Part shown: positions 16,321-29,714 of the stretch, one piece after another
Numbering within the stretch: position 1 is the first letter of the stretch
Layout of the letters: every line of letters starts with the position of its first letter
DNA from: a virus
Virus record (IMG/VR): IMGVR_UViG_3300005581_000076
Span: 1-31,825 of that record
Direction: 5' to 3' (one strand)
Length of the DNA stretch: 31,825 bases
Position numbers and translations under genes: made by a program
Notes under the pieces: model-generated
Told to the model about the DNA's origin: nothing
The model's database searches: none
The model's input: the letters and a program-made list of their open reading frames with translations, nothing else

Positions 16321-16473
16321 ACGGGGCTGCGAAGTTCACTCGTAGAGTGAACGAGCAGACTGCGAGCGGAGTCACGTCTGGAACGAACGAAGTTTCTTTG
16401 TTGCTTTCGGGCAAAGTCCGAAGCAACAAGATGCGTAGTGAGTGCAAGGTCGTGACGGAGCGAGCGGGGCTAA
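16321..16473 (+). ncRNA. Structured repeat A, copy 2 (candidate RNA)
   Basis: This 153-nt element is homologous along its whole length to the copy at 15647. Stems are TTCACTC/GAGTGAA (16335-16351), GTCACG/CGTGAC (16371-16376 with 16451-16456) and a bulged arm (16396-16410 with 16418-16430). Each stem differs from copy 1 by paired substitutions, while single-stranded parts are almost identical. Its final GCGGGGCTAA begins a composite element that continues to 16732. Confidence 0.75.
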
Positions 16474-16732
16474 TACCCCCCGCGAAGACCCGATGCTGCG
16501 GCCGAACCCTGACACACCCCTTCTTCCGCACTATAACTTGTGAACTCTAAAAAGTCAAGTCTTTTTTCGTCACTTTCCGTGGTTTTTTGACAATTTTCGT
16601 CACCCACAGTGGTCAAACAGAAAAATAGGACGAAAAGTTCCTCGACTGCGCCCCCGTGCTCGAGCTGGGCTGAGCCATCTGGGGCAGTTGCCGGGGCTAC
16701 TGCCCCAGATTAGAAACAACGGTGGCGGAAGA
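16464..16732 (+). repeat. Composite structured element, copy 1
   Basis: The order is CGGGGCTAAT, then paired sites CACTTTCCGTG (16571-16581) and CACCCACAGTG (16601-16611). A perfect 12-bp hairpin (16677-16710) with CCGGGGCT in its loop and ACGGTGGCGGAAGA (16719-16732) follow. The same order and nearly the same distances recur at 17885, 18622 and 20168. No gene is seen in 16142-16874 beyond the two elements. Stretch 16733-16874 is GC-rich with weak hairpins only. Confidence 0.8.
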
Positions 16733-16874
16733 CGGGCTGCTGGGCTGAGTTTCGGGAAACACTAGACACGCCCAACGCCCTGTGCTGATTGTCGGGTGTT
16801 CTCATCTGGCAAACACGGCTTCGCTGCTCTGAGGGCTTCTCAGGTCGGTTTGCGAGGTGTTCAGGGGCAGCGCA

Positions 16875-16907
16875 AAGCCGCCATTCCCAATCTAAGAACG
16901 GCGGCTT
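16875..16907 (-). terminator. Terminator hairpin after micropeptide 2
   Basis: AAGCCGCC pairs with GGCGGCTT over a 17-nt loop, just beyond the micropeptide stop at 16910. Confidence 0.55.
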
Positions 16908-16909
16908 GT

Positions 16910-16966
16910 CTAAGACGGTATTGAGAACAGCGCAACGATGGCGAAGACGACAATGAGAGCACTCAT
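16910..16966 (-). CDS. 18-aa hydrophobic micropeptide (family copy 2)
   Basis: It reads MSALIVVFAIVALFSIPS and stop. The ATG overlaps the TGA of the upstream gene as ATGA, so ribosomes can re-initiate directly. A terminator hairpin follows three bases after the stop. It shares MSALI..(L/F)A(L/I)(I/V).LFS with the other four copies. It is predicted to sit in the membrane; function unknown. Confidence 0.7.
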   Translation of the reverse strand: MSALIVVFAIVALFSIPS

Positions 16967-17238
16967 GGCATACCTAATACGCCGACAGAAAGCAAAGCGG
17001 GGTCGCACTCATGCTGCGTTCCGTTGCTGTCCTCAACTATGAGAACCTCTCGTCGTGGTGGCTCTGTGCCGCACGGGTATTTGGCTGCCTTGTGCCAACC
17101 TTTACAAGCGCAACGCTCGCATACCCCGTCCCATGTTTCGGGGTCTCGCCACCATAAATGGGTGTCGTAGTTGGCTATCATTTCCGCAACCGTCCCCACA
17201 AAGGGTATCGGCTCGTTGATGGTGTTGATTATTCGCAT
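16963..17238 (-). CDS. Cys-rich putative zinc protein, 91 aa
   Basis: ATG 17238 lies 7 nt behind the -10 TACAGT, a leaderless start that excludes the longer upstream reading. The core HLWWRDPETWDGVCERCACK then GWH...YPCG resembles small zinc-binding proteins common in actinophages; four cysteines and a histidine are available. It is translationally coupled to the micropeptide that overlaps its stop. Function unknown. Confidence 0.75.
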   Translation of the reverse strand: MRIINTINEPIPFVGTVAEMIANYDTHLWWRDPETWDGVCERCACKGWHKAAKYPCGTEPPRREVLIVEDSNGTQHECDPALLSVGVLGMP

Positions 17239-17245
17239 GGCAGCG

Positions 17246-17288
17246 ACTGTACTGGACAACACAGTAGATGTCAAGTGTTATTTGTCAC
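17246..17288 (-). promoter_or_regulatory. Cassette promoter with operator
   Basis: On the minus strand, TTGACA (17274-17269) and TACAGT (17251-17246) have a 17-bp spacer. Operator GTGACAAATAACAC (one base off consensus) at 17288-17275 abuts the -35 box. The ATG follows the -10 by 7 nt. Confidence 0.75.
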
Positions 17289-17308
17289 ACAGACCGGAGC
17301 GTCTTCAC

Positions 17309-17434
17309 GAAGTTCCGGCAGCGGCAGCCTCGCAAAGTTCCGGCAGCATCTCAACCCCCCGGCAACTGGGATTGGGTTATTGATTAGCGGGGCTCACGCC
17401 CCCGTGATGGCACTTTTGTGACGGTGGTGGAAGA
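17309..17434 (+). repeat. Short structured element (E2) with preceding direct repeats
   Basis: AAGTTCCGGCAGC occurs twice (about 17312 and 17335). CGGGGCT is at 17388-17394, able to form GGGGC/GCCCC with the following bases, and ACGGTGGTGGAAGA is at 17421-17434. The CAC-N5-GTG pair is absent here. It lies left of the 65-aa gene cassette. Confidence 0.65.
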
Positions 17435-17454
17435 GGGCTGGGGCGAGACAGCAA

Positions 17455-28588: not shown

Positions 28589-28598
28589 AAAGACCGTA

Positions 28599-28745
28599 TT
28601 CGGGCAGGTTCGCAGTAGTGAGCCTGCCCGAAGGCGTGGCGAGTGGGTGGTATTTACCCCCTTTCAGCCACTCACTCGCCTGAACTCGCCCCACAGGAAG
28701 CCCGTAGAGGCGATGAAAGTAACAGCCCGTCACTAAGGTACGGGC
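28599..28745 (+). promoter_or_regulatory. Three consecutive hairpins between VWA gene and next gene
   Basis: TTCGGGCAGG/CCTGCCCGAA (28599-28632) is perfect. GGCGAGTGGGTGG pairs with CCACTCACTCGCC with one wobble (28638-28680). GCCCGT/ACGGGC (28725-28745) lies just before the ribosome-binding site of the next gene. The first two may terminate transcription, the third may gate translation. Confidence 0.6.
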
Positions 28746-28760
28746 AGAAAGAAGGAAACA

Positions 28761-28982
28761 ATGAGCAAGTACCGTGTTCAGATTATGGTCGGCGTAGATG
28801 TGGAAGCCAACTCAGATGGTGAAGCGATTAGCGAAGCCATACAGAAGGTGCGTGGCATAGTGGGCGATGACCCGACAGAGCCGATGCCGAAAGAAGCGTG
28901 GGTTACAGGTGTCGCACTCGCAGACCCAACACACGAAGGTTCATCGTTGTCGGGGTTGATGGTGTTCCGACAGCCCGACTAA
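28761..28982 (+). CDS. Hypothetical protein, 73 aa
   Basis: GAAGGAAAC precedes ATG 28761. MSKYRVQIMVGVDVEANSDG opens a ferredoxin-like beta-alpha unit, resembling small phage proteins that end with a substrate-strand (GVALADPTHEG). No known family. It lies after three hairpins and left of element tail E13. Confidence 0.7.
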   Translation: MSKYRVQIMVGVDVEANSDGEAISEAIQKVRGIVGDDPTEPMPKEAWVTGVALADPTHEGSSLSGLMVFRQPD

Positions 28983-28997
28983 CCCTAGTCTTTGCTG

Positions 28998-29011
28998 ACG
29001 GTGGTGGAAGA
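28998..29011 (+). repeat. Element tail without hairpin core (E13)
   Basis: ACGGTGGTGGAAGA preceded by TTTGCTG, but no CGGGGCT or hairpin upstream: it follows the 73-aa gene stop by 15 bp. It looks like a truncated copy. Confidence 0.65.
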
Positions 29012-29013
29012 CC

Positions 29014-29241
29014 TTAGTTGTTGAACACTCGTCTGTCATACAGACGCAAGGCATTGACGGTCAAGGCAGTTACAGAACACTTCCAATAAGTGGCGTTCCA
29101 GTCTGCAATGTCAGAAGAACGAACAAACCACAAGACAATCCACAAGACACTTCCGTAAGCAAACCCTGCTATCCCAACTCCCGCTAACGACAACAACAGT
29201 TTTGGCTTTGGCTCTTTATCCAGTTCAGGGTGTCTAGGCAT
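29014..29241 (-). CDS. Small membrane protein, 75 aa
   Basis: ATG 29241 has AAGGA 8 nt upstream and overlaps the end of the upstream gene. After a charged N-terminus (PRHPELDKEPKPK) come one or two membrane helices at about residues 15-40 (LLLSLAGVGIAGFAYGSVLW and IVLWFV), then a polar tail. Function unknown. Confidence 0.7.
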   Translation of the reverse strand: MPRHPELDKEPKPKLLLSLAGVGIAGFAYGSVLWIVLWFVRSSDIADWNATYWKCSVTALTVNALRLYDRRVFNN

Positions 29242-29614
29242 TTGACGGTTCCTTGTATCCCATGCGGTTGAGTATCTGATGAACTCTTTGCCTTGACAAG
29301 CCGTACTCATCTCCGATGTTTTGGAGTGACCTTCCTACCTGCCGAGCCTGAACCATTGCGTTGTCCCTGTCTGGATTACCAGAAGGCCCGGGCTTGCATG
29401 GCCCCCATGTCCACCCCGTAAAGGACTCCAACTGCGAGATGCGCTCAGGTGAAAGAGTGCCAGCACGGTACTTGACACGCACATAGGTCACCCATGACCC
29501 AAGCGATAGCGACTCCCCGTCGGCTAGGCATTTGTAAGATGTCGGCACTAGGGCTGTGCCGTTCTCAGCAACATAAGTTGATAGGGCTTGTATGTTCTTG
29601 TTCCATTTGCTCAT
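29234..29614 (-). CDS. Helicase-associated (HA) domain plus HTH protein
   Basis: This is 126 aa. Residues about 1-75 (NIQALSTYVAENG, VPTSYKCLADGESLSLGSWV, ERISQLESFTGWTW) match the helicase-associated domain repeats with the conserved W...R pattern. The C-terminus SLQNIGDEYGLSRQRVHQIL is a sigma-region-4-like helix-turn-helix. A DNA-binding role is likely. It is co-translated with the membrane protein downstream. Confidence 0.85.
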   Translation of the reverse strand: MSKWNKNIQALSTYVAENGTALVPTSYKCLADGESLSLGSWVTYVRVKYRAGTLSPERISQLESFTGWTWGPCKPGPSGNPDRDNAMVQARQVGRSLQNIGDEYGLSRQRVHQILNRMGYKEPSNA

Positions 29615-29660
29615 ACTCTTGACACTACTCGAACGTGCGGCCGCTGCGGCGGAACCCAGA

Positions 29661-29714
29661 AGCCCCGCGGGGCCGCTGCCGATTCCGGGGCTGCAACCTG
29701 ACGGTGGCGGAAGA
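29661..29714 (+). repeat. Short structured element (E14)
   Basis: AGCCCCG (29661-29667) pairs with CGGGGCT (29686-29692), then GCAACCTG and ACGGTGGCGGAAGA (29701-29714). It lies between the HA-HTH gene and the 69-aa gene and is the last copy seen. Confidence 0.7.

Follow-up and report, generated by a model that had tools for sequence, protein, structure and literature searches.

A single-orientation composite seam borders gene cassettes at one locus of a family of uncultured freshwater phages

The DNA analysed here (the window) is 31,825 nt long and covers positions 1 to 31,825 of the IMG/VR virus record IMGVR_UViG_3300005581_000076. It carries an array of small genes in which a short repeated element, which we call the seam, lies between gene units. 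The features of the array locus, with coordinates and strand, are as follows.

12967-15054 (-): SNF2-family helicase, left border of the array locus
16677-16732 (+): seam 1, hairpin with box CGGGGCT (16692) in its loop, spacer, core at 16719
16733-17434: cassette of family 44, one small minus-strand gene (16963-17274)
17388-17434 (+): seam 2, box 17388 and core 17421, without a strong stem
18089-18143 (+): seam 3, 10-bp hairpin, box 18102 in the loop, core 18130
18824-18882 (+): seam 4, 11-bp hairpin, box 18839 in the loop, core 18869
18883-19577: cassette of family 1, gene 18949-19305 (-)
19533-19577 (+): seam 5, box 19533 and core 19564
19578-20427: cassette of family 0, gene 19653-20078 (-)
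20370-20427 (+): seam 6, 13-bp hairpin, box 20387 in the loop, core 20414
20428-21701: cassette of family 3, genes 20670-20948 and 20957-21364 (+)
21657-21701 (+): seam 7, box 21657 and core 21688
22511-22569 (+): seam 8, dyad AGCCCCG-N18-CGGGGCT (22511/22536) and core 22556
23209-23268 (+): seam 9, dyad AGTCCCG-N18-CGGGGCT (23209/23234) and core 23255
24637-24681 (+): seam 10, box 24637 and core 24668
25414-25469 (+): seam 11, dyad AGCCCCG-N18-CGGGGCT (25414/25439) and core 25456
26253-28588 (+): MoxR/CobS-like ATPase and CobT-like gene, conserved non-cassette block
28998-29011 (+): naked core, without box or hairpin
29234-29614 (-): protein with HA and sigma70-r4-like HTH, candidate seam-binding partner
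29661-29714 (+): seam 13, dyad AGCCCCG-N18-CGGGGCT (29661/29686) and core 29701
31643-31656 (+): naked near-copy GCGGTGGTGGAAGA

An earlier, sequence-only reading of this DNA had listed thirteen cores of the form ACGGTGGBGGAWGA, and all thirteen were found where it had placed them, every one on the plus strand. When up to two mismatches were allowed, 14 cores were found, compared with 0.84 ± 0.96 in dinucleotide shuffles, and none on the minus strand; the fourteenth is the one-mismatch plus-strand copy at 31643. That reading had also reported a CGGGGCT box upstream of twelve of the thirteen cores, intervals of about 700 bp and genes pointing both ways between the cores, and these observations were reproduced. 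The box ends 8-26 nt upstream of the core, about 75% of the genes are on the minus strand, and across relatives the core-to-core spacing has a mode of 600-900 bp, which corresponds to one small gene with its promoter, terminator and seam. The naked core at 28998 lies 15 nt past the stop codon of the gene at 28761-28982, which places it after the conserved CobS/CobT block.

Other repeated sequences were seen in and near the array. Just to its left are two related copies of about 150 bp (15648-15797 and 16322-16471) with CGGGGCT at both ends (CGGGGCTGCGAAGTTCAYTC...GGAGCGAGCGGGGCTAA), and a tail similar to these copies lies directly 5' of a core in L017 and G033. A gene-free linker (TTTTCGTCACTTTCCGTGGTTTTTTGAC...CACCCACAGTGG-like) is present in four units (16560-16650, 17960-18040, 18690-18770 and 20240-20310), with a box lacking a core on one side and the next hairpin seam on the other. 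Operator-like GTGACAAATG/TGTCACAC motifs occur at cassette-gene promoters in both orientations, e.g. at 17765, 18510, 20070 and 23310.

Scanning IMG/VR for box and core yielded 87 stretches, and a reversed control pattern gave zero matches. The seam is present in dozens of IMG/VR contigs, almost always in one orientation; core orientation was uniform within all multi-copy virus records but one, which has two forward cores and one reverse. Full arrays in oriented full contigs usually contain 10-20 seam sites. All compared contigs are metagenomic assemblies, in which tandem repeats can misassemble. Gene order, read from contigs long enough to show the genes concerned, places the array at one orthologous locus, with the SNF2 helicase on its left, CobS/CobT inside it and the HA-HTH gene to the right of CobS/CobT. 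In most relatives of sufficient length, the CobS/CobT block lies within the array and the HA-HTH gene adjoins it. PAPS-reductase-like and DUF932 genes (11258-12409 and 8685-9761 in the window) are kept beside the locus in many relatives.

A nucleotide search of the window against sequenced phages gave no match, and among the matches listed its SNF2 helicase is at most 35% identical to those of isolates. WhiB-like genes and proteins suggest that the hosts of this large uncultured freshwater virus family are probably actinobacteria. Scanning bacterial genomes for the pattern returned mostly chance matches within coding DNA; only L155 and possibly L119 look genuine, and both are probably phage contigs in metagenome-assembled genomes (MAGs). 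L155 is contig RGFZ01000057 of an Oxalobacteraceae MAG; it carries two seams and is probably phage DNA binned into that MAG. The literature searched contained no description of the seam motif or of phage cassette arrays.

The seam is a composite element that consists of a box (CGGGGCT, or the dyad AGYCCCG-N18-CGGGRCT), a spacer of 8-33 nt and the asymmetric core ACGGTGGYGGAWGA. A box in either orientation was found within 75 nt to the left of the core at 78% of 213 non-redundant sites versus 5% of background windows. Where AGYCCCG and CGGGRCT are both present, the distance between them is 23-27 nt in 26 of 30 cases, and most often exactly 25 nt. From box end to core, single forward boxes mostly measure 20-33 nt and dyads 8-22 nt, and the dyad and loop forms are therefore centred about equally far from the core. 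Naked cores make up about 22% of sites, and a core directly after the stop of a plus-strand gene was found at 16 of 47 naked versus 7 of 166 boxed sites. Distant relatives retain ACGGTGGCG but have different core tails (AAAG, ATAY) and different clade-wide spacers, hence tail and spacer are common to the sites within one clade. Phages with helicase proteins of only 61-66% identity share the 14-bp core almost without change, and this conservation is stricter than homologous recombination by itself should require. The CobT gene of G035, a divergent relative, also contains an exact core, ACGGTGGCGGATGA, in its coding sequence (at 65527).

The cores had been proposed to bound cassettes, and comparison of related genomes bears this out, with units between cores reordered, gained and lost whole. 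Cassette families were defined as clusters of the DNA between cores, and at least ten of them change neighbours as entire units. Family 1, for instance, has five pairs of neighbours: 7/0 in the window, 10/8 in G014, 0/94 in G002, 51/35 in G003 and 0/3 in G041. G031 has the order 23|82|24 versus 23|24 in G028, an insertion of one cassette. Three haplotypes with closely similar flanks carry 2b (G007), 2a (G008 and G017) or 2a followed by 2b (G010, G015 and G024). The small cassette genes are mostly without family matches.

Some pairs of sites are alike on one side of the core only, with divergence at or beside the core. The ends of homology blocks were also gathered without choosing sites. Among 15 representatives, the box end coincided with 12 homology ends where 1.8 were expected, and the core start with 12 homology starts where 1.6 were expected, both about seven times chance; homology also ended at the core 5 times (1.6 expected) and started at the box 10 times (1.8 expected). 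Across all contigs, blocks started at the core 41 times versus 6.3 expected and ended there 23 times versus 5.9. Differences in gene units between related genomes thus break at the box or core above chance, in agreement with the boundaries proposed from the window. The majority of homology ends fall elsewhere, at promoters, terminators and gene ends, so the seam is a preferred breakpoint and not the sole one. Since homology blocks also start at the box, a direction in which the box forms the right end and the core the left end is not clean.

Between clades whose helicase genes are about 74% identical, cassette genes share 90-98% nucleotide identity, which points to horizontal exchange, and the right 60-150 bp of the same shared units show near random identity. 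Family 0 of the window and its counterpart in G009 are very similar from just past the core through the gene and its promoter to the box at 20168, where homology ends. Between clades the gene moves and the hairpin/box end often stays behind, which does not support the integron-like interpretation as it had been stated.

Four perfect stems with the core in the loop had been described in the window. The stems are present (at about 16677-16710, 18089-18119, 18824-18856 and 20370-20408), but it is the CGGGGCT box that their loops hold; the 14-nt core follows 5-13 nt beyond the stem, on its downstream side. Nor did conserved stem structure prove to be a general property of the seam, because a strong stem with the box in its loop was found in just 22 of 144 non-redundant boxed copies (~15%; 1.2 in shuffles). 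Perfect stems of 8-14 bp were present in 33 of 194 copies, with a control fraction of about 0.0003. The 70 nt to the left of the core folded with no lower energy than neighbouring DNA. Orthologous stems have a few compensatory or G-U changes, the hairpin of seam 3 being one that shows them, and in two orthologous hairpin sets of 3-4 sequences the covariation pair counts fitted the stem without exceeding those of shuffles (253/500 and 153/500). Since matches to right arms were seen in the left arms of other seams, 'arm swapping', a loop crossover destroying hairpins, was considered; it was dropped since its best case retains the hairpin with one T-G wobble.

That no GTTRRRY core or integrase is seen in the window had also been noted. 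GTTRRRY is not enriched (7% of junction windows versus 9% of flanking windows), and a tyrosine integrase (PF00589) was found in none of 21 array-bearing virus records, contigs of 129-160 kb included, with control genomes positive. Y1 HUH transposase (PF01797), which would mark IS200/IS605-type or REP elements, was likewise found in 0 of 21 records and the serine resolvase domain (PF00239) in 0 of 14. The near-complete relative G007 (160 kb) encodes a PD-(D/E)XK exonuclease, SSB, a RuvC-like resolvase and WhiB proteins; these family scans covered most of its non-structural proteins, namely those of about 80 aa or more save a few that ran across piece borders, and no site-specific recombinase was among the matches listed (the commonest 25 families per scan). 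Six promoter-like sites were found versus 6.6 expected from shuffles, none within a seam. Terminator-like hairpins lie nearly all outside box-core seams; one at 19534, a weak match of 5 bp, overlaps a box.

The best reading of these data is homology-directed modular shuffling at the seam, similar in action to the promoter-early stem-loop (PeSL) elements of T4-like phages and convergent with integron cassettes, yet no integron. We give about even weight to the specific proposal that the seam is the junction for cassette exchange in a hypervariable phage locus, brought about by phage recombination proteins acting on short homology. Cassettes of one or two small genes, each with its own terminator and promoter and in either orientation, lie between cores, and co-infecting phages would swap, duplicate, insert or delete entire cassettes by crossover at the box or core. 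The phage's own proteins, such as the exonuclease, SSB and RuvC-like resolvase annotated in G007, could act by short homology, and the hairpin may present the box as single-stranded DNA. Exchange of this kind would account for the uniform seam direction, because only direct repeats recombine without genome inversion. The strict core, the fixed dyad and the hairpins leave room for a dedicated protein, which could tentatively be a regulator or replication factor or, with a little less confidence, a recombinase.

The first of these options sees the core, together with its box, above all as a site bound by a phage protein (a regulator, replication or DNA-entry factor), with shuffling as a by-product of repeated intergenic sequence. 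We regard this as possible, though it would not be our first choice. Clade-specific core tails (AWGA, AAAG or ATAY) and spacers that are common to the sites of one genome would be expected if a DNA-binding protein co-evolves with them, the dyad spacing is fixed at 25 nt, and the HA-HTH protein encoded in most arrays is a candidate for such a role. Less easily explained by protein binding are a core orientation independent of gene orientation, a distance from box end to core that ranges from 8 to 33 nt, and a seam position that, by inspection, is not fixed relative to promoters.

The second option is a dedicated, integron-like site-specific system in which the substrates of an unrecognised phage or host recombinase would be the core and the box-hairpin folded from single-stranded DNA, with naked cores in the role of attI and boxed seams in that of attC. 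The invariant asymmetric core, kept in one orientation whatever the gene strand, fits such a system, as do the strong stems of mostly unrelated sequence around a conserved loop, the isolated compensatory changes in stems, the core-to-core insertion 23|82|24 and the preference of naked cores for the position after a plus-strand gene stop. The recombinase families searched gave no match, however, the majority of seams are without a stem, cassette genes travel from clade to clade without the hairpin end, and ordinary recombination has pairwise homology to use. We therefore consider such a system unlikely. We think it equally improbable that small genes are gathered and shuffled among freshwater phages by a viral form of cassette capture independent of integrons, in which an unrecognised recombinase would use single-strand hairpins showing GCGGGGCT and the invariant ACGGTGGCGG core. 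A structured RNA family transcribed from the plus strand is very improbable, since the minority of seams with variable stems around a conserved loop and the isolated T-A / T-G / C-G changes in orthologous stems are set against no Rfam match for the window, no general fold signal, pair counts within shuffles and a majority of neighbouring genes antisense to the seam; an RNA role is not needed to explain the observations.

PeSL elements pair a strong promoter with a stem-loop terminator and are tied to gene direction, and encapsidated mini-circles arise by exchange between neighbouring elements. As cited in PMC4503421, PeSLs belong to hyperplastic regions of T4-like phages, in which modular shuffling has been reported (Arbiol et al. 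2010; Comeau et al. 2014), and by the title given there they are composite promoter-terminator motifs. As far as that account goes, the seam resembles them: it too is repeated between genes, has stem-loops and sits at a hypervariable locus of large phages, where, here by sequence comparison, small genes are shuffled through recombination between copies. It differs in that the scans used recognised its core neither as promoter nor as terminator, in keeping one orientation on either gene strand, and in its box dyad with fixed 25-nt spacing.

With integrons (intI / attI / attC) the locus shares a single-orientation array of small cassettes, a bounding element with a variable stem and a kept motif, whole-unit gain, loss and reordering of cassettes at the site, and naked cores that are possibly attI-like. 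It departs from them in that no integrase was found and GTTRRRY is not enriched, promoters and terminators belong to the genes themselves, which lie in both orientations, and the hairpin occurs in a minority of seams and does not always move with the gene. The comparison is apt for function but breaks down over the integrase, the GTTRRRY core and a structure common to all seams.

Stoperators are asymmetric sites of cluster A mycobacteriophages to which a phage repressor binds, silencing transcription, and, like the start-associated sequences of actinophages, they are short asymmetric intergenic motifs present in many copies, in one orientation and clade-specific. The seam has the same properties. 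Unlike stoperators, it is confined to one cassette locus, its orientation is independent of transcription, and it coincides with recombination breakpoints.

The hypervariability of a large uncultured freshwater phage family thereby gets an address, namely one locus and one seam, at which small genes are traded between phages whose helicases differ in a quarter of their bases. The seam allows cassettes to be found automatically in metagenomes, and it lets one test if a dedicated gene-capture system has evolved in phages or if short homology is reused.
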